A stretch of 64,000 nucleotides of DNA from Okeania sp. SIO3I5 (GTDB lineage: Bacteria > Cyanobacteriota > Cyanobacteriia > Cyanobacteriales > Microcoleaceae): positions 1 through 64,000 of the forward strand of contig NZ_JAAHHT010000035.1 of assembly GCF_010672085.1 (NCBI RefSeq), in the 5' to 3' direction. The notes under the pieces are model-generated. The model searched no databases and was not told the origin of the DNA. It saw only the letters and a list, made by a program, of their open reading frames with translations. The stretch's first letter is position 1, and each line of letters begins with the position of its first letter. This document shows, piece after piece, positions 16,739 through 53,488 of the stretch. Position numbers and translations under genes: made by a program.

Positions 16739-17800
16739 TCAATAAAACAGTTTTTGGGTTGATCGGGTTAAGCAATTTTTGTTGATAAATCGATTGATTT
16801 CAATAGCAATCCGATCGGCACCTCTACCATCTACTTTTTTCCATCCACTATAAGCTATCTTACACAACAAATCTTGACTTTCAGTCAGTTTAATTAGTTG
16901 ATTTGCTGCATTGTCAATTATTCCTAAATTCGCTATAAGTTCGATTGAATCTAGTTTTTCTACATAATACTTCATTGAATCCCAAGTAATTGCTGCACAA
17001 GGTCTTCCCAAACACATCGCCTCGTATGAAGTTATTCCTCCAAGAGTAACGATTAAATCGCATTCTAACATAAACTGTGCCAAACAGCTAGGTGATTGAA
17101 CTAAGTTGATCCATCCCTTGCGATCGCTGATGAGCCTCAATTCATCAATCTGTAATGGATTAAAAGCTGGTCCAATAACAACAGTCACAGAAAAAGATGG
17201 CTCTAGTTTTGCACGAGCCAGATTTTGGAGTAGCTTAATACTGAGATTTCCTGGATCTGACCCTCCAAGAGTAATCAGAACTTGCTCGACTTTATTCTTG
17301 CGCCAAGGTTGAGCAGGACGTAATCGCAAGACTGACTGACGAATAATTCGATAATCAGCACCAACTAATCCTACTCCCTCAAAAGACTCTGGCAAATCTT
17401 TTTCAGACTTAAAAGCATCTCCATCGACTACCATATCGGCAGCAAAACGACCTTTACCGCTGTCATTCAGATGAACAATAACTCGGTATCCTTGATTTTT
17501 TGCCTCCGCTATATCCTCAGATTGTAAATTTAAGAGATCGGTTACCAAAACAGAGATTCCTTGGGAGTCACAGAGACGCGATCGCTCTCTAATTGCAGAA
17601 GTCCCATCGGAAACTAAAACCACTTCACACTCAGAAGGGCGAAAATGAGCAGCTAATTCGGGACTTGCTTCCCACAGTAATACGACTCTATCCCAACAAC
17701 CCGTATCAATCAAAGCACTTGCCAAAGTTGCAGTTCGAGATAAGTGACCCACTCCAATACTACCACCACCTGCTGCTTGAATTACTACTGAAAACTTCAT
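16739..17800 (-). CDS. pseG: PseG-like UDP-sugar hydrolase
   Basis: 353 residues. The N-terminal motif GSIGVGHLSRTATLASAL matches the GxGHxxR signature of PseG, which removes UDP from UDP-2,4-diacetamido-2,4,6-trideoxy-altropyranose before condensation with PEP. The C-terminal half has the GT28/MurG-like fold (LITLGGSDPGN at about 180; CDLIVTLGGITSYEAMCLGRPCAAITWD at about 255-280). The start ATG at 17800 is preceded by GAGG at a good distance. It lies 8 bp after the cytidylyltransferase gene. It is longer than Campylobacter PseG (~274 aa) and lacks a fused acetyltransferase, so exact substrate stereochemistry is an inference from the neighbours. Confidence 0.75.
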   Translation of the reverse strand: MKFSVVIQAAGGGSIGVGHLSRTATLASALIDTGCWDRVVLLWEASPELAAHFRPSECEVVLVSDGTSAIRERSRLCDSQGISVLVTDLLNLQSEDIAEAKNQGYRVIVHLNDSGKGRFAADMVVDGDAFKSEKDLPESFEGVGLVGADYRIIRQSVLRLRPAQPWRKNKVEQVLITLGGSDPGNLSIKLLQNLARAKLEPSFSVTVVIGPAFNPLQIDELRLISDRKGWINLVQSPSCLAQFMLECDLIVTLGGITSYEAMCLGRPCAAITWDSMKYYVEKLDSIELIANLGIIDNAANQLIKLTESQDLLCKIAYSGWKKVDGRGADRIAIEINRFINKNCLTRSTQKLFY

Positions 17801-17808
17801 TTTAGCCT

Positions 17809-18528
17809 CTAGTTAAAATTTTGCCATTCGGAATGTGCGTCAAGAACTGCCACAATATCCTTGACACTAGCATATTCTGCCATTTCACCAAGAGCTTCCG
17901 CAATTAAGCGAACTCGTTGCAATTCTTCAGCAGTATCTACACTCAGTTTCCAATGTTTGCGCGATAATTCTATCGGGGGAGCAAGGCGAGAAATTTTAAA
18001 TTTTTCAGGAAATTTATCCACTGTTGGAGTAACGTGTTCTCGATCTTCATCGGTATTTCCCAATAAAAACATTCTTTTAAAAGCTTCGATGCTAAATACC
18101 TCTGCATTAAACCCGTTTGGATAGGCAGTTTCATAATACGGTTGACCTTGAATATTACTGTATTCTGCACCATCTTGACGGTTTAGCTCTACCACTGCAT
18201 CTAGTAAAGCACCATCTACCAAAGGACAATCTCCAGTAACTCGTACAACTAGAAACGCTCCTGTTTTTTCTATCAACTGGTTGTAGCGGGAACGAACATC
18301 CTGAGAATATCCACGCACAACCCCAACTTTGCTCTCCACAGATGCTACCAGTGCATCATCTTCCGAATTAGTTGTAGTTAAAATCCAAACTTCATCTATT
18401 TTACTTGCTTTTTTGACCCGATCTATTACCCAGTGAATCAAAGGTTTGCTACAAATAGGCATCAAAGACTTGCCAGGAAGACGAGTGGAACCCATACGAG
18501 CTTGAATTCCCGCGACAACTTTCTTCAT
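17809..18528 (-). CDS. SpsF-type cytidylyltransferase (probable CMP-nonulosonate synthetase)
   Basis: 239 residues with the SpsF/COG1861 signature IQARMGSTRLPGKSL (8-22), then RVTGDCPLVD (nucleotide/metal region) and HWKLSVDTAEELQRV. Classical NeuA/PseF enzymes begin IPARGGSK, so this is a different branch of the same nucleotidyltransferase fold. Position between pseI and pseG makes CMP activation of the nine-carbon sugar the most likely job. I start at ATG 18528 because it overlaps the pseI stop as ATGA and has GGGAG upstream. An ATG five codons earlier (18543) would overlap more and lacks such a site. Confidence 0.8.
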   Translation of the reverse strand: MKKVVAGIQARMGSTRLPGKSLMPICSKPLIHWVIDRVKKASKIDEVWILTTTNSEDDALVASVESKVGVVRGYSQDVRSRYNQLIEKTGAFLVVRVTGDCPLVDGALLDAVVELNRQDGAEYSNIQGQPYYETAYPNGFNAEVFSIEAFKRMFLLGNTDEDREHVTPTVDKFPEKFKISRLAPPIELSRKHWKLSVDTAEELQRVRLIAEALGEMAEYASVKDIVAVLDAHSEWQNFN

Positions 18529-19577
18529 TTGAACATCTCCCATTGCAGCACTGTGTTTTCTGCCAGATCACTAGAGACTTTCATTCCTACAACTACATCC
18601 AAAAATTCTGGAGTAATTCCGCCACCAGGGCGGACAATTTTCAGGTCTTCAGGTTGCAACTGATGACCTGCTGTAACTGGATGGCGTAACACTAAAGAAC
18701 GTACAGAGGTTTTCCGTTCGTGATTTTCGCAAGCAACTACCCGCTTGCGGGGATGTCCTAAAGCTACATAAGCTTCATTGACTCCATTAACTAAACCTTG
18801 CAGTTGTTCCATATTCAAACTAAACCAATGATCTGGTCCGAAATCGTCCTGATTTAAGGTAACGTGCTTTTCTATGACTCTCGCACCTAAAGCAACAGCA
18901 GCTATGGGTGCTGTAATTCCTAAACTATGATCGGAAAACCCGATTACACATTCAGGATAAAGTGTTGCTAAAGTTGGAATCACCCGCAAATTCATTTCTT
19001 CCATTGGCGAGGGATACTGGGAAATGCAGTGCATGATGCACAATTCTTGGCAGCCATTTTCAAATAAGGTGGTGATAGCAGTGTCTGCTTCTGAGAGTGT
19101 GCATTTCCCCAGGGATAGTAAAACTGGTTTTCCCGTTCGAGCAATATGACGTAGCATGGGTAAGTGATTGACATCAGAAGCAGCTACTTTGAAACAAGGA
19201 ACGTCTAACGTCATCAAAAAATCTACCCCATCTTCGCTGAAAGGAGTTGAGAATACTTCTAAACCTAGTTCGCGAGCTAATTGAAATATATCAGCATGAG
19301 CTTCGCGGGGTAGAGTTAGACGTTTAAATACCTCTCCAATTCGCTCTTTTTGTTCTTTACCAGGCGGCCCCCAATTAATAAATCGTTGGGAATCGGCGAC
19401 TAACTCTTCTGCTGTATAAGTTTGGAACTTAACAGCTTTTGCTCCAGTTGCTGCCACTTGACGGAGCATTAATTCTGCTTTTTTAACATCTCCATCGTGA
19501 TTAGCACCAATTTCTGCAACTACTAAAGGTGCAGCATTATTGCCTACTGGAATTTTCCCAATTACAAAATCAGCCAA
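18525..19577 (-). CDS. pseI: NeuB-family nonulosonic acid synthase (pseudaminate synthase-like)
   Basis: 350 residues. The TIM-barrel synthase domain starts VVAEIGANHDGD (19-30), with AVKFQTYTAEEL, VFSTPFSEDGVDFL, CFKVAASDVNHLPMLR, IGFSDHSLG and ARVIEKHVTL. A C-terminal SAF (antifreeze-like) domain follows (about 290-350, SVRSLVLRHPVTAG ... LKIVRPGGGI). It condenses a six-carbon 2,4-diamino sugar with phosphoenolpyruvate to give a nonulosonic acid. The start is TTG at 19577, because a perfect AGGAGG lies 5 nt upstream and no ATG fits. The partners (pseB, pseC, pseG) argue for pseudaminic acid rather than neuraminic acid, so I use pseI. Confidence 0.85.
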   Translation of the reverse strand: MADFVIGKIPVGNNAAPLVVAEIGANHDGDVKKAELMLRQVAATGAKAVKFQTYTAEELVADSQRFINWGPPGKEQKERIGEVFKRLTLPREAHADIFQLARELGLEVFSTPFSEDGVDFLMTLDVPCFKVAASDVNHLPMLRHIARTGKPVLLSLGKCTLSEADTAITTLFENGCQELCIMHCISQYPSPMEEMNLRVIPTLATLYPECVIGFSDHSLGITAPIAAVALGARVIEKHVTLNQDDFGPDHWFSLNMEQLQGLVNGVNEAYVALGHPRKRVVACENHERKTSVRSLVLRHPVTAGHQLQPEDLKIVRPGGGITPEFLDVVVGMKVSSDLAENTVLQWEMFK

Positions 19578-19604
19578 TTTATCCTCCTTATTTAATAGTT
19601 AAAC

Positions 19605-20507
19605 TCATGTACCAATAATCAGACCGAAGTTACGACCCATACCCACCCCTGCTAGAGATTTGCAGAAAGCATAATATTTATCCATACCTGCTTCTGCCAT
19701 CATTAGTTCTAAGCGGATGCGGGCGCGATGAGCATCTTTTCCTCGTTCTCGGTTTTTATAGTAATTTGATTCTGGATGAAACAGAAATATATCTACTGGA
19801 AATGTAGAAAAAACATCTATAACTTTGAAACCCAAAGATTTGACAAATTCCTGACAATTTTCAATATTAAAATAGCTCAAATGAGCTGGCGGACTCCACC
19901 AAGTTTCCTCTTCTATTAAACCTAATTCTAAAGCTTTCATTTGTAGAGGACTGTAGTCATTGGGAACGATAAATAATATTGCGCCACCAGGTTTAATAAT
20001 TTTTTTGATATTTTGCAAAAGTTGTTCCGGATCGATGACGTGTTCAAGTACATTCTGCATTACACAAAAATCGAATGATTTACCAGAACTGAATAGCTCT
20101 TCTAGGATTTTGTAAGCATCTCCAAAAGTAACGCGCTCGGCCATGTCTGGGTTAAACCTTGCGATCGCATAACTACTAAAATCAATGCCTTGGACATTCC
20201 AACCTCTTTCAGCAGCGCGTGAGAGTAAAAATCCTTCACCACAACCAACCTCTAGAAAGCTAACTTGGGATGGTATTAGATTAGGACAATAATTTTGAAG
20301 AGCATAGATAATCAAATCAGAATGTAAATTACGATAGGCAATTTCTTCTCTATCGTAGCTTTGTTCGTAACCCGTTTGCCTAAGAGACTCTTCGTCTTGA
20401 TAGTATTGTTGCGAATAAAATAGTTGCAACTCTTCCTTAGTTGGCATAGGTTGTACTCGGATGTAACCTAAAGGAGTTTTTACCTTTTTAAAGACAAATT
20501 TGTGCAT
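19605..20507 (-). CDS. SAM-dependent methyltransferase (methyltransf_23 type)
   Basis: 300 residues. Motif I is FLEVGCGEGFLLSRAAERGW (about 84-102), then VQGIDFSS, FDFCVMQNVLEHVIDPEQLL and IKPGGAILFIVPND. The C-terminal part (HLSYFNIENCQEFVKSLGF ...) is typical of methyltransferases placed in polysaccharide clusters. The N-terminus has the short leader FVFKKVKTPLGYIRVQPMPTKEEL seen in that group. AAGGGA sits 9 nt before the ATG. Close spacing to pseI (27 bp) and to the MBL gene (24 bp) supports one operon. The substrate is not known. Confidence 0.78.
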   Translation of the reverse strand: MHKFVFKKVKTPLGYIRVQPMPTKEELQLFYSQQYYQDEESLRQTGYEQSYDREEIAYRNLHSDLIIYALQNYCPNLIPSQVSFLEVGCGEGFLLSRAAERGWNVQGIDFSSYAIARFNPDMAERVTFGDAYKILEELFSSGKSFDFCVMQNVLEHVIDPEQLLQNIKKIIKPGGAILFIVPNDYSPLQMKALELGLIEEETWWSPPAHLSYFNIENCQEFVKSLGFKVIDVFSTFPVDIFLFHPESNYYKNRERGKDAHRARIRLELMMAEAGMDKYYAFCKSLAGVGMGRNFGLIIGT

Positions 20508-20531
20508 ACTTATTTCCCTTGTGTTTATTAA

Positions 20532-21935
20532 TTATTGCCTCTCTTGAACATTAGATGCAATTTTTTTCTTAAAAGATTTTTCATAACCATCAATACCTAA
20601 GTAACTTGGGAGAAAACTGTTAGAGAATACAGAAAGAAAATACCATAATGCTGCTTCTTGCTTTGTGTACCCACCTTGACGTTTAATTCTTAAGTAACCC
20701 GCCTTCAGATCGTCAAAAGTTAACCCCCCTTCTATCACTGCACCCAGATGTCTTGCTGCTACATCAAAAACTAGAGGTAAATTTACTATTTGTTCTTCTG
20801 TAAAAGTTTTTGATTCTATCTTGCAGGAAGAGTTGGGAAAATCAAGTTCTATCTCATACTGCCAACATTTGCTATCTTGTTTTGCTTGTATAACAACCTT
20901 GATTTCTCTTCCTTTTTTCAGATCGGGATCTGGAAAGATACTTCCAAAGCATTCTTTAACATATTTACAATAGGAGTCAAACAAATTCAAGAAATGTTCT
21001 GGTTGGAAGTAAAACTGATTTTCCCATTCTTGAATTTGTGCAATAATATTTTTAACATCTTCCCTTTGACGCAATTTATTTAATTTTTCTATCCATTCTT
21101 GACGTGAACTAACACTTGGCACAAATTCTTGAGAGACAACATCTAGGTCAATTACATCCCCAGGATTAGGAGTTAACACATCAAAATTGTCAGCTTTTCT
21201 AGTGGCAAACTCTTTAAACTCTATAGGAAGACAACCCGCAAATTTATCAGTTTCCGGCCATCGAAAATACACACAATCTCCCGCACAAGGAACGATCCGA
21301 GATACTTTCAAAAAACTTGCATAACGAGCAGTTCTTTCAAAAACAGATTGATTTCTTCTGACTGTCTCCTTTTGCTTAAGTTCTTCAGGTATATCAAAAA
21401 AAGTTGGATACATACTTGCGCTGGAAAAAAATAAAAGTCCCAAATCTATGTCAAAATTATTGCCTATCCATTTAGCATCTTGTTCGGAGAGCATACAATC
21501 ATTTTGATGAAAAACTGTAGCTCGCTCATCAGAAATCACTAAAGCGCTGTCTGTAGTTGAGCGATTGCAAAACAAGGTAGCAGAAAAATCTTTTCCGAGG
21601 ATAAAAGTTTGACCATGTTCTAATTCTATAATATGGGAATATCCAGACTTGATCAATAAAGGCTTAATAGGATTATTTTGTCCATATTTTCTGATGATGA
21701 TAGGGATATTTCGAGCAAAATGGGACAAAGTTTTTAAACAGAAGTGGTCTGGATGTTCGTGAGAAATGTAAATAAAATCCTGGTTAATATACTCATTTAA
21801 GGGAATTGAACATTCGGGAAACTGCCATATGGCATTTGCGTAAATTGGATTGTACAACCAAGGATCTAGCAATAGGCGTTTACCGGAAGCACTAATAATT
21901 TGAAAAGATGCGTGGCTATAGTAACGTATTTTCAT
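20532..21935 (-). CDS. MBL-fold metal-dependent hydrolase-like protein
   Basis: 467 residues. The N-terminal ~240 residues look like a metallo-beta-lactamase fold: YYSHASFQI (strand with His), LLLDPWLYNP, and the metal motif ISHEHPDHF (HxHxDH variant). A conserved-looking cysteine/aspartate block AGDCVYFRWPETDKFAGCLP follows. This arrangement recalls UlaG-like proteins and the hydrolase-like half of CMP-Neu5Ac hydroxylase, but no Rieske cluster is seen. The C-terminal ~200 residues are charged and unassigned. Position inside the nonulosonate operon suggests processing of the sugar or its nucleotide form. The actual reaction is unknown to me. Confidence 0.65.
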   Translation of the reverse strand: MKIRYYSHASFQIISASGKRLLLDPWLYNPIYANAIWQFPECSIPLNEYINQDFIYISHEHPDHFCLKTLSHFARNIPIIIRKYGQNNPIKPLLIKSGYSHIIELEHGQTFILGKDFSATLFCNRSTTDSALVISDERATVFHQNDCMLSEQDAKWIGNNFDIDLGLLFFSSASMYPTFFDIPEELKQKETVRRNQSVFERTARYASFLKVSRIVPCAGDCVYFRWPETDKFAGCLPIEFKEFATRKADNFDVLTPNPGDVIDLDVVSQEFVPSVSSRQEWIEKLNKLRQREDVKNIIAQIQEWENQFYFQPEHFLNLFDSYCKYVKECFGSIFPDPDLKKGREIKVVIQAKQDSKCWQYEIELDFPNSSCKIESKTFTEEQIVNLPLVFDVAARHLGAVIEGGLTFDDLKAGYLRIKRQGGYTKQEAALWYFLSVFSNSFLPSYLGIDGYEKSFKKKIASNVQERQ

Positions 21936-22061
21936 TAAAAGTTATTTATTTGATATAATATTGTTTTTAGTATAACTAACAGTTCTTCAGTTATCAAGGA
22001 AGTTAGTAAAGAGACTCTTTAAATCTCTTTCCTTCGCTGTGGCAGCCACGTTTGCTCGATC

Positions 22062-22748
22062 TTAATGCGTAATATTCCTGCCTAACATAAATGCTTCTGC
22101 CGCTTCTACTCCAATAGTTGCGCCCCGCCAATGAGCTAAATGTTCTAGAGCAATAATAGAACGAGCATGAGGCCATGGCCGCATTTCAGACTGGTAAGCT
22201 TCTAATGCTTTTAACTTCAGACTTATAGTATCTGAAACATCAACAAACCAGTTTGGTGCAAATATTGGTGCAGAATATGGTGTTTGCCATTCGGTGCTGG
22301 ATGCAATCTCAAAAAACAATAAAGTTTTGACACTTCTGTTAGGTAAAGGTCTTGTGGCAGTAACTACTGCTTGATGAACGTAGCAATGATCGATATTAAG
22401 ATCGCCTCTGTGATGAGTATAAATAATTTCTGGTTGATGTTTGTCAATAGCCTGCTCTACTACTTTAACAATATCTAACAAATTGCAACTATCAAGACGG
22501 TTATCTGGGAAATTATGCAGTTCCACAGATGCTGCGCCTAAAATTTTAGCTGCCTCACGAGGAACTTCTGCTAATGCTGATAACTCGTAGTTTCTCTTTT
22601 CCCGATCAGGTTGCAAGTCTCGGCTAGTTATGCCTTCTGCTAAAATTAGCACATGAACCACATCTCCACGAAGTGCGTGTTTAGCTATTGTCGCTCCACA
22701 ACCTAACACTTCATCATCTGGATGAGCTGCAATAACTAAAACCTTCAT
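22062..22748 (-). CDS. PIG-L/LmbE family deacetylase
   Basis: 228 residues. The zinc-binding AHPDDE motif is at residues 8-13, and the second metal ligand lies in HRGDLNIDH (about 114-122). This family removes N-acetyl groups from amino sugars. The ATG overlaps the stop of the formyltransferase gene as ATGA, with AAGGAG upstream, so the two are translationally coupled. Together they could swap an acetyl for a formyl group on the sugar amine, which is an inference from neighbourhood. Confidence 0.82.
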   Translation of the reverse strand: MKVLVIAAHPDDEVLGCGATIAKHALRGDVVHVLILAEGITSRDLQPDREKRNYELSALAEVPREAAKILGAASVELHNFPDNRLDSCNLLDIVKVVEQAIDKHQPEIIYTHHRGDLNIDHCYVHQAVVTATRPLPNRSVKTLLFFEIASSTEWQTPYSAPIFAPNWFVDVSDTISLKLKALEAYQSEMRPWPHARSIIALEHLAHWRGATIGVEAAEAFMLGRNITH

Positions 22749-23455
22749 AGCTCCTTATCCTCTTTAAGTGTAATTTTGACATCAGCAATAATTTGCCCCT
22801 CGTACAAAGCGGCTCTACTGAATTCAAAATGAAAGTCTTTGTAATTAATAAATGCTTTGGGATATCCTTGTGCATCTAGCATCCGAATAAAATCATGTAA
22901 ATTTGAGAGCGATGCTAATTCTCTAATTTCACTTTCTTCTGGTTTGCGTCGCTTAAATATTACAACTTCTCCTTCTTGAGGCAAAGGCTGTGGTTCTTCT
23001 TCAACCATACGCTTAATCATCTTAGATGATAAGTTGGTACTGCGAATATAAATTTCTTCAGCATTACCCTCTAAAGAGAGAGGTTCCTTCAAATACACCG
23101 GACCTGCATCAAATTCTTCACTCATCCGTAAAGCAGTAAGCTTTGTTTCTCTATGACCGCGAACAATTAAGTTTTGCAGTGGAGTTCCTCCACGTCCATA
23201 AGGAACATCCGTCATGTGAAAGCAGACACATTCATGGTTTTCGATTAAGTCATTAGGCACTTTCCACGACCAATGAAGAAAGAAAATATAACGAGGATTA
23301 ACTTCTTTTATTTCTTCTATGATTAATTGTGTTGGTGAATCAATAAACAACCAATTGCCCGGATATTTGACAAGTTTTGTATTGAAAATATGACGGTTCC
23401 AAGGTTTGCTACCACAGACAATGTAACTTTTTTGATTTTCTTCAACGTTAGTCAT
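22745..23455 (-). CDS. Sugar N-formyltransferase-like protein
   Basis: About 236 residues. It has the formyltransferase core with the signature FHMTDVPYGRGGTPLQNLI (about 90-108) and FDAGPVYLKEPL carrying the catalytic Asp. This is the N10-formyl-THF-dependent fold of methionyl-tRNA and UDP-sugar formyltransferases, but far from the tRNA enzyme. It lacks the tRNA-binding C-domain. I choose ATG 23455 because AGGAG lies 11 nt upstream; an upstream ATG pair (23479) has no such site. In Pse pathways PseH acetylates the 4-amino group. No PseH is here, so this enzyme may formylate that position instead. Confidence 0.72.
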   Translation of the reverse strand: MTNVEENQKSYIVCGSKPWNRHIFNTKLVKYPGNWLFIDSPTQLIIEEIKEVNPRYIFFLHWSWKVPNDLIENHECVCFHMTDVPYGRGGTPLQNLIVRGHRETKLTALRMSEEFDAGPVYLKEPLSLEGNAEEIYIRSTNLSSKMIKRMVEEEPQPLPQEGEVVIFKRRKPEESEIRELASLSNLHDFIRMLDAQGYPKAFINYKDFHFEFSRAALYEGQIIADVKITLKEDKEL

Positions 23456-23599
23456 TTGTTTTTTAACTCCTATCATCAATGCTAGAAAAAACTTTTGACG
23501 AATTTATGATAATGGTTCCTTTTTAACATCTAAAAAATTGCCACAAGTCCCATACCTCCTTAGCATTGCAAACAACCATAATTTAACTTTTTGAATTAT

Positions 23600-24304
23600 T
23601 TAATTAGGACGCTTGCACCCAACTATTAGCCAACTATGTTTTTCTTTCATATTATTTTTCCACCAATTATAAAGCTCTATATTTTCTAACTCAAAACCTG
23701 CCTTAGTAATAAGGTTCCGAACGACTGATTCATCTACAAATGTGTAGTGGCAACCAGCATAAACATCAGCTCTTTCATCTAACAAAAAATAGTCCTCATC
23801 TAACTGGGTTCCTAAACCATAAAACCAATTTTCTTTAGTGCGAAAGTTGACACAAAGCTGTCCACCTGGACGTAAAAGCTCAAATATATACTTTAAATCA
23901 GTCTGCATTTCTTCTAGAGAGCGCAAAAAAACAACCCCCCAGCAGATAACAACATCAAACTTGTTCGCTGGCAAATTTGTATTCCGAAAGTCGCCTATAA
24001 AAATATCGCCAAAAAGCTGACTATCTCCGTAAAACTGACGCACGCGATCGCACGCTTCTGGAACAAACTCTACCCCACTTGCTCTATAGCCAAAATCCAT
24101 TAATAGCTTTAAGTGCTGTCCCGAACCAAACCCTATATCTAATCCCTCCAAATTCACTTTTTCTTCAGTCTTAATCTTTGACAAAAAACGAACTATATGC
24201 TCGTCAGGATATCGTAAAATATTCTTAGATAACTGCTTTGTAGCAAAATCTTTATTTTTTTCATTAATTGCTGTTAGTTTGCCCTGCTCTAAAGAACCAC
24301 TCAT
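23600..24304 (-). CDS. SAM-dependent methyltransferase
   Basis: 234 residues. Motif I GLDIGFGSGQHLKLLMDFGY (about 52-71), then GVEFVPEACDRVRQFY, NKFDVVICWGVVFLRS, LLRPGGQLCVNFRTKENW and a C-terminal FVDESVVRNLITKAGFELENIELY. GAGGAA sits 10 nt before ATG. It is the third methyltransferase of the cluster. The target is unknown, and O- or N-methylation of the nonulosonate or of the finished glycan is inferred. Confidence 0.78.
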   Translation of the reverse strand: MSGSLEQGKLTAINEKNKDFATKQLSKNILRYPDEHIVRFLSKIKTEEKVNLEGLDIGFGSGQHLKLLMDFGYRASGVEFVPEACDRVRQFYGDSQLFGDIFIGDFRNTNLPANKFDVVICWGVVFLRSLEEMQTDLKYIFELLRPGGQLCVNFRTKENWFYGLGTQLDEDYFLLDERADVYAGCHYTFVDESVVRNLITKAGFELENIELYNWWKNNMKEKHSWLIVGCKRPN

Positions 24305-24342
24305 TAATTTATTTCCTCAATCAATTATTTTCTACATTGAAT

Positions 24343-25560
24343 TTAATCTACATTGAATTTAAGTTGACTAGCAGCATTATTCCATAGTTGTTCTGCTTCA
24401 CTTCTAGTTTTTCCAGTAGTTAGTAAGTAACCTACACTATAACCAGTGCTGCTAGTTCGACGTTTTTCAACTATGTCTCCTGATTTTAAGAAACTTTCAA
24501 CTGCAACAACTCCTGGCATTTGACTAACTTTTTTTAGCCCTTCTAGTTTCACAAAACTTCCTATAGGAGAAGAAAGCATTCGTAAAACTGCCCCTTGATT
24601 TTGGAGAATTTGAAAATTTGCCTTGCCACCTAAGTTCATTATTATTGTCTGCTCAAGCGCAGATATTCCAATTGCAGCAGGAAGCATCTTTGCACTTATA
24701 TTAAAGCCAGAAGGTCGCCCAGAAATTTCTATAATAACTAATTTATCTGAGTTGATAATAATATCTGCGTGTACTAAGCAATTTTCTAAACCAATCGCTT
24801 TACAGGCAATTTCCATAATAGTATTAATCTTATTATGAAGTTCTTGAGAAAGCAAGCTAGGAGTAAGATAACCATAAGGTAATCGAAAAGGAAGTTCTGT
24901 TACTTCTTTATCGCGAATCAAGAGAGTGCTGTGCATCTCTTCGACTATGGCGCTATCCACCCCAATTTCATGTCCCGATACAAAGCTCTCAACTAAGGAC
25001 TTTGTTGACTCTTTGCACTTTTGTCGTTGCTCTAAATGCCACGGTATCCAGGACTCAAATTCAGCTTTGTCTCTGGCGACAAATACTCCCTGACTACCAC
25101 TACCATAACGAGGTTTGACAACTACTGGCCACCCAATTTGTTCTGCTGCTTTTAGAAGGGAGTTGCGATCGCTTCCTTCGGCAATTTCCGGTGTTGGAAG
25201 TCCTGCTTTTGCCAGAATTTGACGTGTCAGCAGTTTATCCGTACAAATTTGCGCAGCTTCCTCCGAAATTCCCCGCAATCCCAAAGCATCATTAACTGCT
25301 CCCACAGTTGTTAAAATAGCTCCTAAAGGAACCGGTAAAACACAGCGGACATCTGCTTCTTTTGCAAGTTGCACGACTTTAGCTGCATCTCGTATATCCA
25401 TTGCAATGCCTCTATCTGCTGCTTCTAATCCCACTGCTGTTGGATTTCCATCTAAAGCAGTAACGTTCAATCCCATTTTCTGAGCTATTTTAATGACTGG
25501 CAACTGCTCAATTCCTGCGCCTACGCACAAAACATTAATATTTTTTGATAGTTTAGCCAT
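24343..25560 (-). CDS. ATP-grasp ligase (carbamoyl-phosphate synthase / PurK-like)
   Basis: 405 residues. The N-terminal pre-ATP-grasp Rossmann part (INVLCVGAGIEQLPVIKIAQKMGLNVTALDGNP), then the ATP-grasp core: CTDKLLTRQILAKAGLPTPE, WPVVVKPRYGSGSQGV, LVESFVSGHEIGVD and VIIEISGRPSGFN. Such enzymes join a carboxylate to an amine through an acyl phosphate. Between pseC and a methyltransferase it may attach an amino acid or similar acyl group to an amino sugar. This is an inference and no substrate residue is diagnostic. It starts 17 bp after pseC. Confidence 0.78.
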   Translation of the reverse strand: MAKLSKNINVLCVGAGIEQLPVIKIAQKMGLNVTALDGNPTAVGLEAADRGIAMDIRDAAKVVQLAKEADVRCVLPVPLGAILTTVGAVNDALGLRGISEEAAQICTDKLLTRQILAKAGLPTPEIAEGSDRNSLLKAAEQIGWPVVVKPRYGSGSQGVFVARDKAEFESWIPWHLEQRQKCKESTKSLVESFVSGHEIGVDSAIVEEMHSTLLIRDKEVTELPFRLPYGYLTPSLLSQELHNKINTIMEIACKAIGLENCLVHADIIINSDKLVIIEISGRPSGFNISAKMLPAAIGISALEQTIIMNLGGKANFQILQNQGAVLRMLSSPIGSFVKLEGLKKVSQMPGVVAVESFLKSGDIVEKRRTSSTGYSVGYLLTTGKTRSEAEQLWNNAASQLKFNVD

Positions 25561-25577
25561 AGCTTTTATAGAGAGGT

Positions 25578-26743
25578 TTATTTGAGCAAAGTTGCGATTT
25601 TATTCGCTACAAAATCTTGATTATTTTCAGTTAAACCATAGTACAAAGGAATACTAATTGCTTCTTGATAATACTGTTCTGCTTCATAAAAATCACCCCA
25701 CTTAAAACCCAACTCCTGATAATAAGGTTGCGTATGCACGGGAATATAATGCAAATTCACCCCAATTTTTGCTTGACGTAATTCCTCAAAAACTTGCCGA
25801 TGAGTTTTCTTAATTTTATCCAGTTTCAGCCTGATTACATAAAGATGCCAACTGGACTCCGTATCTGGATGTTGCCAAGGTAGCATCAATGGTAAACCTT
25901 GCAACAACTGATGATAACGCTCTGCCAAAAATCGACGTTGCTTGACAAATTCATCCAAACGTTGTATCTGACTTGCACCCAAAGCAGCTTGAATATCGGT
26001 CATCCGATAATGAAAGCCTAATTCCAATTGTTGATAATACCAAGGTCCGTGAGACTCTTCTTTCATTAACTCCACTTTGCGAGTAATGCCATGAGTCCTT
26101 AATCTAATCAACTTTTCATACAACTCCTCCTTATTAGTTAATATCATTCCACCTTCACCAGTAGTAATAATCTTGACTGGATGAAAGCTAAAAACTGCCA
26201 TGTCTGAAAATTGACAGGAACCCACAGGTTTTCTTTGGTAGTAACCACCGATTCCGTGAGCAGCATCTTCTATTATTCTAAACCCATAACGTTCAGACAA
26301 AGCAGCAATTTTTGCCATTTCGCAAGATTGTCCGGCAAAATGTACTGGAATGACTACCTTTGGCAAACAACCTTGCTTTTCTGCTTCTATCAGTTTACCC
26401 TCTAATTGATCAACACTCAAATTATATGTATTGGGGTCAATATCCACAAAATCTACAGTAGCTCCACAATACAATCCACAATTTGCTGAAGCTACAAAAG
26501 TATTAGGGGAAGTCCAAAGAATATCTCCTTGACTCAAACCTGCTGCTAAACAAGCAATATGTAAACCTGCTGTTGCACTGGAGACTGCTACTGCATACTT
26601 AGCACCACAATAATCTGATACAATTTTCTCAAATCTTTCTATTGCCGGACCTTGAGTAATCCAGTCTGAGCGCAGCACCTCAACCACTGCATCAATATCC
26701 TCTTGACTAATATTTTGTCTTCCATAAGGGATAAATGAATTCA

Positions 26744-26744
<1 letters not shown>
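25578..26744 (-). CDS. pseC: PseC: UDP-4-amino-4,6-dideoxy-N-acetyl-altrosamine transaminase
   Basis: 388 residues, a DegT/DnrJ/EryC1/StrS aminotransferase. The N-terminal FIPYGRQNISQEDIDAVVEVLRSDWITQGP is typical of PseC. The PLP lysine is in FSFHPVKIITTGEGG (about 190-204), with ASANCGLYCGA, VDIDPNTYNL and IIEDAAHGIGG before it. It transfers an amino group to C4 of the 4-keto sugar made by PseB. Its ATG shares one base with the pseB stop (TAATG), so the two genes are coupled. Confidence 0.88.
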
Positions 26745-27730
<986 letters not shown>

Positions 27731-47521: not shown

Positions 47522-49426
47522 ATGCGGTCAAAAATTCAAACTATAGAACAAAGTTTTGAGCAAATTAAACCCCATGGGAAGGAATTTGCAGCAAGTTTCT
47601 ATGAAAATCTATTTGCAGCATATCCAGAACTCAAACCACTGTTTGCTAATACTGATATAGAGAAGCAAGAGAAAAAGTTGCTTAATGCTCTAATTTTAGT
47701 AGTGGAAAATCTCCGACATCCAGAAGCATTAAAAGAAGTTGTGCAAGCATTGGGAGCGCGACATGTCAATTATGGAGTTCTAAAGCAACATTATCCTATG
47801 ATAGGTATAGCACTACTGGAGACCTTAAAGCAGTATCTTCAAGAAAATTGGAATCCTGAAGTAAAAGTAGCTTGGGTATCTGCTTATCGTGGAATTGCAA
47901 AACTGATGTTGAAAGGTGCAAATTCTCTATCTCAGGTGGAGACAGATGTAGAAATAGAGATACAAGAAAATATGGAGATGACACTTCCTAATATTGAGTC
48001 ATCTATTGAAGGAATAACGGAAACAAAAACAGAAACTCCAACTCCTTCACTTTCAACATCTAAAATTAATCTAGAGAAAGCACCAGTTCCAAAACCAAGT
48101 TCTCAATTACAGGTAGAAGTGATTGAAAATAGTTTTGAAAAAATTAAACCTCATGGGGAAGAATTTGCAGCAAGTTTCTATGAAAATCTATTTGCAGCAT
48201 ATCCAGAAGCAAAACCATTATTTGCTAATACTGATATAGAAAATCAACAGAAAAAATTGCTCAATTCCTTAGTGTTGGTAGTGGAAAGTTTACGCAACCC
48301 AGAAGCATTAGCGGAAGTATTACGAAACCTTGGTGCCCGTCATGTTAATTATGGTACTTTGAAACAACATTATCCTTTAGTAGGAAAAACATTACTGAAA
48401 ACTTTAAAGCAATATCTTCAGGAAGATTGGACTCTAGAAGTTAGTAACGCTTGGGTATATGCAATTGGTCAGATTACAAGATTTATGTTTGAAGGTGCAG
48501 GTTATATAGATACAAATAAACCTTCAATTCAACAGACAGAAACAACAGCTACAAAACCTACTTCTGAACCACAAGAAAAATCTCTATCAAACCAGACTAC
48601 TCAACAAAAAGTTAGACCAAAAGTTAACCAAACAAAAAAACAGTCTGATCGGCAATATTCTCCTGAAGCAGCAACACTAAAAACACAAAAATTGATAGAG
48701 CAAATTATTAATGTTTTCTGGGAATTACCAAAATTGTCAGTAGTAATTATCGCAGTCATTATTACAGTTATACTGGTTAATATCGTAGGTGAAGATTCTT
48801 TTTTGGCTAAGACATTGGATTCTGCTGACGTTATTAGTGTTATTGTAGCTGTAGTTTTATTTGTTAAAGAAGCTCCTGACCGAAAAAAAGAATTTCATTA
48901 CCAAGCTTGGAGTATAATAGATGCAGCTAAAGGTGTCAAAGATAGTCAGGCTAGATTTATGGCAATTCAAGACTTAAATAAAGACGGTATTTCTTTGAGA
49001 AGTTTACAAGTATCAGGAGCATATTTAGCAAATATTGATTTAAAAAATGCCAATCTCAATGAGGCAAATTTAAGCGAAGTAAACCTAGAAAATGCTAATC
49101 TCAAAAAAGCCAATTTAAGCTATGCAAATTTAAGTTCCGCTAAACTATCTACCAGTAATTTAACTGAAGCAAATCTGAGTTTTACTAATTTGAAAAATGC
49201 CAATATTAGTAATAGTAAATTAAACTACTCTAATCTAGTTTGTGCCGACTTGAGCAATACAAATTTAAGTGGTGCTAATTTGACTGGAGCAAGTTTAAGT
49301 GGTGCTAATCTAACAGAAACTTATTTAGTTGGTGCTAATCTTAAAGATGCTAAAGTAAGTATTTATGAACTTTCTAATGCTTATTTAAAAGATGCAATTA
49401 TGCCAGATGGTTCTAAACATAAGTAG
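47522..49426 (+). CDS. Double globin - transmembrane - pentapeptide repeat fusion protein
   Basis: 634 residues. Two globin domains, about 1-135 and 195-330, are very similar to each other. Each keeps the flavohemoglobin-type heme pocket: Tyr B10 (Y27, Y220), Gln E7 (Q49, Q242) and proximal His F8 in GARHVNYG (H81, H274). A polar linker follows (135-195 and 335-395), then two hydrophobic helices (about 403-423 and 435-450), a short helical segment, and ~25 pentapeptide repeats (about 488-620, ANLxx). There is no reductase domain. It is likely a membrane protein with two oxygen- or NO-binding hemes on one side. A sensing role is inferred. The stop codon TAG is the first three bases of element C6. 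C5 lies 13 bp before the ATG, and no clear ribosome binding site is seen. Confidence 0.88.
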   Translation: MRSKIQTIEQSFEQIKPHGKEFAASFYENLFAAYPELKPLFANTDIEKQEKKLLNALILVVENLRHPEALKEVVQALGARHVNYGVLKQHYPMIGIALLETLKQYLQENWNPEVKVAWVSAYRGIAKLMLKGANSLSQVETDVEIEIQENMEMTLPNIESSIEGITETKTETPTPSLSTSKINLEKAPVPKPSSQLQVEVIENSFEKIKPHGEEFAASFYENLFAAYPEAKPLFANTDIENQQKKLLNSLVLVVESLRNPEALAEVLRNLGARHVNYGTLKQHYPLVGKTLLKTLKQYLQEDWTLEVSNAWVYAIGQITRFMFEGAGYIDTNKPSIQQTETTATKPTSEPQEKSLSNQTTQQKVRPKVNQTKKQSDRQYSPEAATLKTQKLIEQIINVFWELPKLSVVIIAVIITVILVNIVGEDSFLAKTLDSADVISVIVAVVLFVKEAPDRKKEFHYQAWSIIDAAKGVKDSQARFMAIQDLNKDGISLRSLQVSGAYLANIDLKNANLNEANLSEVNLENANLKKANLSYANLSSAKLSTSNLTEANLSFTNLKNANISNSKLNYSNLVCADLSNTNLSGANLTGASLSGANLTETYLVGANLKDAKVSIYELSNAYLKDAIMPDGSKHK

Positions 49427-49773
49427 GGTTTGCTGAAAAAGTATGCATGGGTGAGGGTAGGAGTCAGGAGACAGGAGACTCGAGACTGGAGGAGTAAGGA
49501 ATTTAGAGGAGACAGAAGGAAGAATTTACAGCAGTTTTCATTTCAGTAAACCACAGCAGGGACGTTCCATGGAACGTCCCTACGGGGTTTTGGTTCTGAC
49601 GATGTGGTTCATCAATCTGAAAAGCGCTGTAATTCGTAATTTTTCGGTTCTTGTCAACCCAAAATCCTAACTTTATGCAGCTCTAAGGAGCAAAAACCTT
49701 GTACTTTTTCAAGACCATTACCGACTAAAACCTTTAGGAGTTAATGCTTTAAAATTTAATCAGCAAACCCTAA
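49424..49773. mobile_element. Miniature element family C (copy C6), interrupted by element B2
   Basis: It opens TAGGGTTTGCTGAAAAAGT at the stop codon of the globin gene and closes TCAGCAAACCCTA. Without the B2 insert it matches C1 nearly base for base. Confidence 0.85.
49529..49629. mobile_element. Miniature element family B (copy B2) with TA target duplication
   Basis: 101 bp. Ends CAGCAGTTTTCA and TGAAAAGCGCTG (10 of 12 inverted). TA flanks both sides (49527-49528 and 49630-49631). The empty site is visible in C1 as GAATTTAATTCG. A perfect 22-bp palindrome lies at 49559-49580. TA duplication suggests mobilisation by an IS630/Tc1-mariner-type transposase. The rest of the gap, 49774-50041, holds no recognised feature. 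Confidence 0.85.
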
Positions 49774-50041: not shown

Positions 50042-50359
50042 ATGGAATCACACAAATACTTATTAGCAAAAAATATGGCATTTCTCATGTTAGTTTCTCC
50101 AGATACTAACTTAGCAAAATTATTAAAATTTTGTTTGGCAACAAAAGTTACTGGAGAAAATCCTGGTCAAATAGCAGAAGAAATGGCTCGAAAACTCATG
50201 GAAAAACCATCTAATTTTGCTTATTGGACACAAGATGTTATGAGAATTGACGATGAATATACCACTGAAGAATGGGAAGTTGTAGGTCATATGGAATTAA
50301 CAAATATTGAGGAATTTATGAATCAGTTGTGGCAAGAGCTAGAAAGTTTGAATTTGTAG
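50042..50359 (+). CDS. Hypothetical small protein
   Basis: 105 residues. A possible ribosome binding site AAAGGTAGAG precedes the ATG. The sequence is mixed helical and soluble, with conserved-looking HKYLLAKNMAFLMLVSPDTNLAKLLKF and a Trp-rich acidic second half (FAYWTQDVMRIDDEYTTEEWEVV). No signal or membrane segment. I do not recognise it. Confidence 0.6.
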   Translation: MESHKYLLAKNMAFLMLVSPDTNLAKLLKFCLATKVTGENPGQIAEEMARKLMEKPSNFAYWTQDVMRIDDEYTTEEWEVVGHMELTNIEEFMNQLWQELESLNL

Positions 50360-50418: not shown

Positions 50419-50967
50419 TTAAGGAATGACTTTTTCTGGCGCACAACCTATCAAATTAGTAATTAAACATACAGTTGGACCTATGCTTGTACCACGCAGG
50501 TTAACTCCTTCTAAATTCGCTCCACTGAGATTAGCTAGAGTGATATTTGTTTCCATTAATTTAGCTTTAGTAAGGTTAGCATTAGAAAAATCTGCATCCT
50601 TCAAATTTGCTTGATGCATATTAGCATTGAAAAGATCGGACTCACTAAAATCAGCATTTTCTAAGTTAGCTCTAAACCAATATGATTGACGTAAATTTGC
50701 ATTAGATAAATTAGCTCCACTAGCAAGAGATTCAATCAAATTTGCTTCAAATAGATTAGCATTTTCTAAATTTGCTTCTGTAAGATAAGCTCTAGATAAA
50801 TTGGCATGAGCTAAGTAAGCATCTGTTAAATTTGCACCTCGAAGAACTGCATCATTCATTTTTGCTCTATAAAGATTAGCATTAGAAAGATTAGCATTAG
50901 AAAGAATAGTTACTGCTAGGTTAGCGCCAGACAAATTTGCTCCTTCAAGGTTAGCACCTTCTAAATC
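50419..50967 (-). CDS. Exon 2 of intron-split pentapeptide repeat protein
   Basis: 183 codons including the stop. From 50967 the frame reads DLEGANLEGANLSGANLAV and continues as pentapeptide repeats to about residue 150 of the exon, ending GTSIGPTVCLITNLIGCAPEKVIP. It continues exactly in phase from exon 1 (53489-53656) across the group II intron, giving a 238-residue exported protein. The fold would be a right-handed quadrilateral beta helix. The role is unknown. Confidence 0.88.
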   Translation of the reverse strand, partial: DLEGANLEGANLSGANLAVTILSNANLSNANLYRAKMNDAVLRGANLTDAYLAHANLSRAYLTEANLENANLFEANLIESLASGANLSNANLRQSYWFRANLENADFSESDLFNANMHQANLKDADFSNANLTKAKLMETNITLANLSGANLEGVNLRGTSIGPTVCLITNLIGCAPEKVIP

Positions 50968-53488
50968 GTTAAACTAAGCCAGGTAAGTTACCCTACCCGA
51001 CTCGTCTTCAGAACCGGACGTGAGACTTTCACCTCATCACGGCTCCTCTCCTAGACGTCCTTTGTCATAGGTACATCCTGCTTTAGAGTTAGCATATCGT
51101 CAATCCATATATAATTTTCAGGTAAATCCTGGGGTTTAAATTTTGGATATGTTTTTTTGTCTGAAGCGGTTTTACTGTCGTGGCAATGTCGGTGCAACAG
51201 TTGTTTATTCTTATAAGTGTTGTCACCACCTTTAGACCTTGGTTTTATATGGTCAACTTCCATAAGGTCAGTCGGCCTGAAGTAATGTCCGCAATACGCG
51301 CATTTACCTTCTTGCTGCTTTAACAACGTTGTGACTTCTTTCCTTACGCCTGGATATTTGCCGATTCTGTTACTCCAATAAGTCCAGTTGCCGTCATAAG
51401 GTGATGCAGTACCTTTTACTTTGATGTGTCTTATAATTGATACATCTGAGTGTTGGTTTAGTATGTATTCGCCATCGTTTAATACCCAATTTCGGGTTCC
51501 TTTTACGTTGGGGAAATACTTTTTCTTTACCCATTGAGCTGACTTATTTGGATGCCTTCTGCTTGCCCACCTCCATAGTCTTTTCCATAGGAGGTGATCC
51601 AATTCATTGAATACTTCCTTGCTGACTACAGTGGAAAAGTAATTAGCCCATCCTCTAATTATCGGATTTAACTTAGCTATTAAAGCATTAGCAGGAGCGT
51701 TTTTGTGAGAATCACATATATCCGCCAATTTCCGATAGTGAGTTTTTATACTATTAGAGGACGGTTTAATCAGCGTCTTAAATCCTTGTTTGGTTGTCTT
51801 GACTTTCCATTGCCTAATCGTAAAACCTAAGAAATCAAGTCCGGGTTTGTTTCCTTCATATTCTTCCAAAGTATGGGCAATTTTGGTTTTTTCTGGTTTT
51901 AGTTCTAATCCTACCTGATTTAACCATTCCTGTATTACGGTTTTTGCTTGTAATACTACTTTGATGTCTTTATGTAGGATTAAAAAGTCATCAGCATAGC
52001 GTATTAATGATAATGCCTTTTTGTTTGCGCTTTTAGTACCTGGTAGGCTTTCAGCGAATTTGTTAAGACATTCTTCCATTCCGTGTAAGGCGATGTTTGC
52101 TAGTAGAGGTGATATTACCCCGGACTGTGGTGTACCTTCCACAGTTTTTGAGAATTGTTTATTGTCAAATACCCCAGACTTTAGCCATTTCTTAATTAAT
52201 CGTCTATAGGGAGTTTGACCTACTTTTCTCAACAGTGCATCATGGTTAATTCGGTCAAAACATTTGGATATGTCAGCATCTAACACATATTTAGGTTTAT
52301 GGTTGATGCTGCTAAAGATGGCACTAATAGCATCATGCGTTGACCGTCCTGGTCTAAAACCATAACTATTAGGTTCAAAACGTGCCTCCCACTCTGGTTC
52401 CATACCCAACTTAACCAAGGCTTGTAACGCTCTATCGTACATTGTGGGGATTCCAAGAGGTCTCTTTTCATCCCTCCCTGGTTTAGGTATCCAGACTCTA
52501 CGGGTAGGGCTTGCTTTGAGGTATCGCGTGTTTAATAAATCAACCAAGTTAAGTCTCTGCATTGGAGGTAGGTTTTTAACACCATCTATCCCGGCAGTTT
52601 TCTTACCCTGGTTATCCTGAGTTACGCGCCTAACAGCTAGCAACCTAGCGTAATAACTTTTGGTCAGAAGTCTTTGGTATTTACGCATCTTGCGGATTTC
52701 GCCACGGCTGGATGCTCTGTAAATTAATTTTTGCAACTTAAATACATTCTTCTCAACCCGTCTCCAATTCATATCTCTCCATTTGAGGTTAGGATTGATA
52801 CTAACTTGATTCGGTATATCGTCTGTATCCCATGCCACGCTTAAAAATGGTTTAGGATTTCCTAAACGTCTTTTTAGTGTTTTAGCCTTATTCATCGCTA
52901 ATTATTACCTTACATTACGTCTAACAGTGGGTACGTCTGCATAATTATGCTTCTTACCCAATCCTACTCTCTCTAAGACCTACGTCCAAAGCGTAGATTG
53001 GCCTTGAATGGCTTCCTAAGATTTCGACCTATATTCTTAGGTGTCCTAGAGAGGTTTCCTCGTTCCCTTATTCCTTTATTACGGCTGATTTAGTGAGGTA
53101 AAGTCTCCCGGAGGGTTCGGTATGGTTGCTGATAATTTCAGAGCTAGCAATTATCCAAAGACCCCCTGACTTTTGTCCTACATTCCATAGCTACCTTTGG
53201 AATGGTTCTTGATAACGAGAGTTTTATTACCTTCCTGTTCGTCCACTTGTCAGCCTTTGCTCGCGGTATCGTTCCTCGGTAACTGGTCCGCATCCCGCTT
53301 TTAAGCCAGCTTCGGAGATTGATGTTCAGTCTCTACTCCGTGGCCTATGCTTTCTACCTAACAACAAGGCGGAGGAATTTCACCTCGAAGGATATAAGAG
53401 TTATTCACAAGTCGAGGTTGTCCTCATGTATTGACTTGGAACGGCCATTTATGTCTAGTTTCCTAGTTTAGTGGCCAACGAGTCGCAC
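50968..53488 (-). mobile_element. Group II intron (2521 bp) inserted in a pentapeptide gene
   Basis: The 5' end on the minus strand is GTGCGACTCG at 53488, matching the GUGYG consensus. The 3' end is ...TTTAAC at 50968 (AY). Domain V is recognisable at 51011-51045 (GAGCCG ... GAAA ... CGGTTC), and domain VI lies at about 50970-51008. Domains I-III occupy 52896-53488, where no gene is seen. The maturase is in domain IV. Removing exactly this segment joins ...ANLIGA to DLEGANL in frame, which strongly supports the borders. Confidence 0.92.
51051..52895 (-). CDS. ltrA: Group II intron-encoded reverse transcriptase/maturase with HNH domain
   Basis: 614 residues. Reverse transcriptase blocks: GIPTMYDRALQAL, PNSYGFRPGRSTHDAI, YVLDADISKCFDRI, GTPQSGVISPLLANI and the active site YADD at 300-303. 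A maturase X domain follows (about 385-470, NPIIRGWANYFS). The C-terminal HNH nuclease has CAYCGH from 532, VDHIKPRSKGGDN and HRHCHD. All parts look intact, so splicing and retrohoming are plausible. The N-terminal leader (DDIPNQVSINPNLKWRDMNW) is typical of cyanobacterial intron proteins. Confidence 0.95.
   Translation of the reverse strand: MNKAKTLKRRLGNPKPFLSVAWDTDDIPNQVSINPNLKWRDMNWRRVEKNVFKLQKLIYRASSRGEIRKMRKYQRLLTKSYYARLLAVRRVTQDNQGKKTAGIDGVKNLPPMQRLNLVDLLNTRYLKASPTRRVWIPKPGRDEKRPLGIPTMYDRALQALVKLGMEPEWEARFEPNSYGFRPGRSTHDAISAIFSSINHKPKYVLDADISKCFDRINHDALLRKVGQTPYRRLIKKWLKSGVFDNKQFSKTVEGTPQSGVISPLLANIALHGMEECLNKFAESLPGTKSANKKALSLIRYADDFLILHKDIKVVLQAKTVIQEWLNQVGLELKPEKTKIAHTLEEYEGNKPGLDFLGFTIRQWKVKTTKQGFKTLIKPSSNSIKTHYRKLADICDSHKNAPANALIAKLNPIIRGWANYFSTVVSKEVFNELDHLLWKRLWRWASRRHPNKSAQWVKKKYFPNVKGTRNWVLNDGEYILNQHSDVSIIRHIKVKGTASPYDGNWTYWSNRIGKYPGVRKEVTTLLKQQEGKCAYCGHYFRPTDLMEVDHIKPRSKGGDNTYKNKQLLHRHCHDSKTASDKKTYPKFKPQDLPENYIWIDDMLTLKQDVPMTKDV

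Follow-up and report, generated by a model that had tools for sequence, protein, structure and literature searches.

Globin chimeras and pentapeptide-repeat proteins are each already known. Tyr B10, Gln E7, Leu E11 and the proximal His F8 are the haem-pocket residues of flavohaemoglobins. In E. coli Hmp, E7 and B10 are among the positions controlling NO dioxygenase activation (PMC7948479). Hell's Gate globin I (HGbI) binds O2 with very high affinity and autoxidises little (PMC4476040). External electron donors are known for single-domain globins, and there is evidence for an NO dioxygenase function of cyanobacterial truncated globins (PMC3820574). The biochemical roles of cyanobacterial pentapeptide anchors are almost completely unknown (PMC8145042). 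A NADPH oxidase of Cylindrospermum stagnale, csNOX5, serves as a structural model for NADPH oxidases and is a relative of the oxidases described below; the csNOX5 paper mentions neither a globin nor an operon (PMC7317449).

The window (the whole 64,000-nucleotide stretch of Okeania sp. SIO3I5 DNA analysed) contains a single unbroken plus-strand ORF from ATG at 47522 to TAG at 49426, encoding 634 aa. The gene, its parts and its downstream neighbours are as follows.

47522-49426, plus strand: entire gene, 634 aa, in the order globin, globin, TM, TM, juxtamembrane, pentapeptide (ORF, Pfam and AlphaFold2; the architecture recurs in many genomes)
47531-47923, plus strand: globin domain 1, residues 4-134, with Tyr B10, Gln E7, Leu E11 and His F8 kept (AlphaFold2 pLDDT 71-94)
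47924-48112, plus strand: linker 1, predicted to be disordered, weakly conserved (26% mean identity)
48113-48505, plus strand: globin domain 2, residues 198-328, haem residues as in domain 1
48506-48664, plus strand: linker 2, predicted to be disordered
48731-48787, plus strand: membrane helix 1, residues 404-422 (hydropathy 2.8-3.0 across 19 residues; helix in the model)
48824-48868, plus strand: membrane helix 2, residues 435-449 (hydropathy at most 1.84; model helix 435-469)
48869-49009, plus strand: juxtamembrane segment EAPDRKKEFHYQAW..ARFMAIQDLNKDG, the best-conserved stretch of the protein (78% mean pairwise identity)
49010-49399, plus strand: pentapeptide-repeat beta-helix, 26 repeats, residues 497-626
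49424-49772, no strand assigned: probable miniature transposable element with inverted ends (13-bp perfect inverted arms)
50042-50359, plus strand: gene S, encoding a 105-aa helical protein with an invariant Cys31, a conserved neighbour of the globin gene

Pfam identified two Globin domains (E 1.5e-35) and Pentapeptide PF00805 (E 2.1e-38) in the 634-aa protein, and no further Pfam domain above the cut-off. Pfam and NCBIfam found no reductase, kinase, cyclase, MCP, GGDEF or similar domain in it, in agreement with the original prediction that the protein has no reductase, kinase or cyclase output. The two transmembrane helices of that prediction were seen by hydropathy at about residues 404-422 and 435-449, where AlphaFold2 also placed helices at low confidence (pLDDT 52-74), and the predicted number of about 25 pentapeptide repeats became 26 units counted in register (residues 497-626; pLDDT 93-98). 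The AlphaFold2 model was built from 24 family sequences. It showed two globin folds with pLDDT mostly 70-94, disordered linkers (residues 137-193 and 330-381; pLDDT <50), a helical membrane part of low confidence and a very confident beta-helix rod. Foldseek matched the rod to HetL and to designed solenoids. Repeat count, PF00805, the model and the HetL fold match all place it among the pentapeptide-repeat proteins. Mean pairwise identity was 78% in the juxtamembrane segment, 66-67% in the globins and 26-41% in the linkers.

An alignment indicated that both window domains contain Tyr B10, Phe CD1, Gln E7, Leu E11 and the proximal His F8, which bears out the earlier assignment of Tyr B10, Gln E7 and the proximal His to both globins. 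Tyr B10, Gln E7, Leu E11 and His F8 were also found in nearly all family domains examined; the proximal His is missing in a few members (Microseira/G091, Oscillatoria PCC 10802/G121 and one domain of L090). The closest non-pentapeptide NCBIfam model was that of the NO-inducible flavohaemoprotein, which matched the globin part only and stayed below its whole-protein cut-off (E 7.5e-44). With Foldseek, HGbI was the nearest solved single-globin fold (TM-score 0.92). Two sets of single-globin members lack the proximal His, L070/L166, where S is broken, and L082/L187, where S is absent. The joint loss of the His and of S is suggestive, but no coupling is claimed, since there are two cases only (G091 and G121) and other S-less loci keep the His.

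The two window globins are 70% identical to each other, as close in sequence as had been claimed. Their duplication had also been called recent, and this did not hold. In a domain tree, window domain 2 paired with the third domain of a three-globin protein from Okeania (92% identity; support 96/87), and window domain 1 was nearest to the first domain of the same protein (78% identity). Because the window domains group with different domains of that protein, the duplication is older than the genus-level split from Okeania. In other lineages, both domains of one protein often paired together, indicating that duplication or homogenisation recurred there. The tree comprised 131 columns only, and its deep forks and many others are unsettled.

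To survey the family, we used the membrane and juxtamembrane stretch as the query against 293 genomes of the order, a sample of related species with one genome each. Anchor matches were found in 78 of the 293; 32 were strong (E < 1e-29) and fell in 31 genomes, 30 of which had the globin form. Across 386 genomes sampled from the whole phylum, strong anchor matches were confined to the order. Named loci numbered 59 and came from Okeania, Microcoleus, Planktothrix, Tychonema, Anabaena, Nostoc, Scytonema, Hassallia, Brasilonema, Cylindrospermum and others, the closest being from Okeania (about 70-76% identical). A genome of the same genus (G154) is without the gene, so its presence is patchy. The number of globins per anchor was one, two, three (Okeania) or four (G153), and several loci had extra, separate globin genes just upstream of the globin-anchor gene. 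Versions of the membrane/pentapeptide anchor without globins were found at L094, L095 and L194-L198, suggesting that the anchor has a use of its own.

A search for the globin and pentapeptide architecture, proposed with the original prediction, showed globin and anchor in a single frame at 43 of the 59 named loci, including complete or nearly complete chromosome records (L153, L160 and L163). Frameshifts do split the relatives L186, L174 and L199 in draft assemblies, as would be expected of an assembly join or of a decayed, functionless fusion; however, the window frame is intact, and with the 43 one-frame loci we give such an explanation practically no credence. A join of two genes was rejected because the same one-frame order occurs in dozens of independent assemblies. 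We found no prior description of the globin-anchor-pentapeptide architecture in the open-access literature. The proposal of a new type of haem protein on a membrane beta-helix scaffold was well supported as to the architecture and the absence of an earlier description, but the type is not unique to the window genome. The gene is real and intact, and it belongs to a conserved family of variable copy number that is restricted to one order of cyanobacteria and apparently undescribed.

Clustering of the neighbouring genes identified gene S at 28 of 41 loci, and it is present at 34 of the 43 named globin-anchor loci. It lies mostly just upstream of the globin gene, and downstream or on the opposite strand in some lineages; more distant copies stand alone in some genomes. 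Its alignment contains 16 invariant columns, Cys31 among them. Gene S was found in 29 of the 30 genomes with the globin-anchor protein versus 12 of the 263 without it (Fisher p 2e-29, kinship ignored). Distances between S proteins correlated with those between anchors (r 0.86; permutation control 0/2000), a correlation for which shared ancestry alone could suffice. The protein had no Pfam or NCBIfam match, and its AlphaFold2 model was moderate (pLDDT 72.8) and gave no significant fold match.

In the window, a MITE-like element of about 350 bp separates the globin gene from S; the corresponding gap is about 83 bp in the relative L148. The first three bases of the element are the stop codon of the globin gene (49424), and its end has 199 copies in the genome versus none for a reversed control. 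The segment 49424-49772 is therefore probably a miniature transposable element that widened the globin-S gap. Beside S, a small separate pentapeptide-repeat protein is encoded at 50419-50934 (minus strand), HetL-like by a model match below the cut-off. A reverse transcriptase/maturase of a group II intron, HNH-like in its C-terminal part, is encoded at 51051-52895 (minus strand). The window also carries a nonulosonic (pseudaminic-type) acid cluster at 16739-27730 (minus strand), with PseB and PseC above the cut-off and PseG- and PseI-like proteins below it.

A calcium-regulated NADPH oxidase with EF hands, a homologue of csNOX5 (PDB 5o0t, 5o0x), was found in 6 of the 293 genomes at a cut-off of E 1e-60. 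In each of these six, the globin-anchor gene lies on the contig of the oxidase gene, at distances of 0.25, 0.5, 1.0, 1.5, 4.3 and 13 kb. The oxidases come from three families yet share 88-94% identity with the query, which was taken from one of the six genomes, suggesting that the gene spread horizontally. Among the 43 named loci, NOX5 lies beside the globin-anchor gene at eight. A membrane protein whose N-terminus is phosphatase-like and whose C-terminus bears EF hands occurred in 12 of the 30 globin-anchor genomes versus 3 of the 263 others, and bestrophin and MscS genes recurred near the loci less often. Genome-level p-values ignore phylogeny, and adjacency across several families backs these links. 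The window genome had no csNOX5-type gene at E 1e-60, and no reductase, NOX, EF-hand phosphatase-like, bestrophin or MscS gene lies beside the window copy. Two other genes were seen at relatives' loci: a nitric oxide synthase of SyNOS-like type, which has EF hands, matches a globin profile and lies some 2 kb downstream of the globin-anchor gene (L154:5522-10165, plus strand), and a membrane dCache-HAMP-guanylate cyclase with a C-terminal globin (L190:273-2870, minus strand).

Close relatives of these globins form a sister branch with a single C-terminal membrane helix and no pentapeptide repeats. Their operon begins with the globin, followed by a 4-haem cytochrome, a 6-haem cytochrome, a Tll0287-like protein, a membrane protein (weak DUF4405) and a thioredoxin. 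The 6-haem cytochrome gene was found in 20 of 149 genomes, in 19 of which a globin lies 0.7-1.1 kb away; a contig break intervenes in the remaining one. The operon is conserved at L096, L097, L098, L099, L103, L104, L116 and L120, the last with four globins, and no description of it was found in the open-access literature. Gene S is present in the cytochrome operon at three sister-branch loci and thus follows membrane globins in two contexts. Both branches adjoin electron-transfer proteins, the NOX5-type oxidase in one and the 4- and 6-haem cytochromes in the other. The linkage to S, and in some strains to NOX5, points to a membrane redox job, not a chance fusion.

We tentatively favour a reductase-less membrane globin array that relies on an external electron donor for its part in O2/NO chemistry. 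The TM hairpin, together with the conserved juxtamembrane segment and pentapeptide rod, would hold the protein at the membrane and dock partners. Judged by the basic residues after helix 2 and by the acidic loop, the protein probably sits on the cytoplasmic side. Flexibly tethered globins, between one and four in number, would bring putative O2/NO-binding haems to the membrane. The most likely reaction would be O2-dependent dioxygenation of NO, or O2 chemistry related to it; with a distal pocket of the flavohaemoglobin kind, NO dioxygenation with an external donor is the first choice and O2 handling a close second. Electrons would come from a separate donor, possibly the NOX5-type flavocytochrome where present and otherwise probably ferredoxin/FNR, and S may be an accessory partner. 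That the number of globins varies and the linkers are flexible would speak for capacity over allosteric coupling. Counting against this reading are the lack of a reductase or NOX gene beside the window copy and of a csNOX5-type gene in its genome, the few named loci with NOX5, the members that have lost the proximal His, the low model confidence of the membrane helices and the anchors that carry no globin. A more doubtful extension is that cyanobacterial NOX5-type oxidases are part of a membrane redox module, whose constant parts would be the tandem globin-pentapeptide anchor and S, with the globin handling the O2/NO side or being re-reduced by the flavin domain of the oxidase; the tail-anchored globins and multihaem cytochromes would make up a parallel module.

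Other functions, among them the sensor or store of the original prediction, were weighed against this array. An O2/NO sensor, in which ligand on the globins alters the membrane hairpin or rod and so regulates a partner (NOX5, a channel or S), would agree with the high conservation of the juxtamembrane segment, with the bestrophin, MscS and EF-hand genes near several loci, with the sensor role proposed for HGbRL, a near relative of the globin, and with the globin-cyclase fusion in a related genome. However, one to four near-equivalent globins on disordered, weakly conserved linkers of 50-60 residues offer no rigid signal path, and no known output domain is present. A sensor is therefore less likely than the array, and we consider it rather unlikely in its own right. 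Membrane tethering and multiple copies, which provide capacity, would also suit a store that raises the O2 concentration around a membrane oxidase, a role proposed for Vitreoscilla haemoglobin, and in some genomes the gene is linked to an O2-consuming NADPH oxidase; but a globin with HGbI-like O2 affinity, if that affinity applies here, would be a poor releaser (PMC4476040), and O2 storage or delivery seems unlikely.

The same linkage bears on a protector that removes superoxide, peroxide or NO near the membrane, for example in a peroxidase-like manner beside a neighbouring NADPH oxidase. In the 293 genomes, csNOX5-type genes occur only where the globin cluster does, and close to it; most loci, including that of the window, nevertheless lack a NOX5 gene, which makes such a detoxifier improbable, the least likely of these functions.

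Relative to the open-access literature, what is new is a set of conserved globins, variable in number, on a membrane hairpin and pentapeptide rod, with a dedicated small partner. One class of cyanobacterial pentapeptide anchors thereby gains a suggested function. Genes for csNOX5-type oxidases now have a defined neighbourhood, so that their physiological role becomes directly testable.

The csNOX5 homologue is a neighbour of the globin gene in some relatives and has no kinship to the globin protein. HglK-type membrane pentapeptide proteins resemble the window protein, as compared by description, in their N-terminal membrane helices and C-terminal pentapeptide rod; HglK is predicted to have four helices and carries 36 repeats, with no globin mentioned, whereas the window protein has two helices and 26 repeats (PMC8145042). 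SyNOS-type proteins are likewise chimeric cyanobacterial globins linked to NO chemistry, but hold nitric oxide synthase and reductase domains in one chain, neither of which the window protein has (PMC6104048). Globin-coupled sensors join a globin to a signalling output domain; the window protein has no known one. HGbI and HGbRL of Methylacidiphilum (PDB 3s1i, 3wfw) are the nearest solved globins in sequence and fold; HGbI is a soluble single domain and HGbRL bears a Roadblock domain, in place of which the window protein has a membrane anchor. Vitreoscilla-type haemoglobin is also an F-type globin without a reductase, but stands alone and is soluble, whereas the window globins are in tandem, predicted to be membrane-anchored and joined to a pentapeptide rod. 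Flavohaemoglobin, the Hmp-type NO dioxygenase, shares the F-type globin with distal Tyr B10, Gln E7 and Leu E11 and the proximal His; in place of its single chain with a C-terminal FAD/NAD(P)H reductase, which the window protein lacks, the latter combines several globins, a membrane anchor and a pentapeptide rod.
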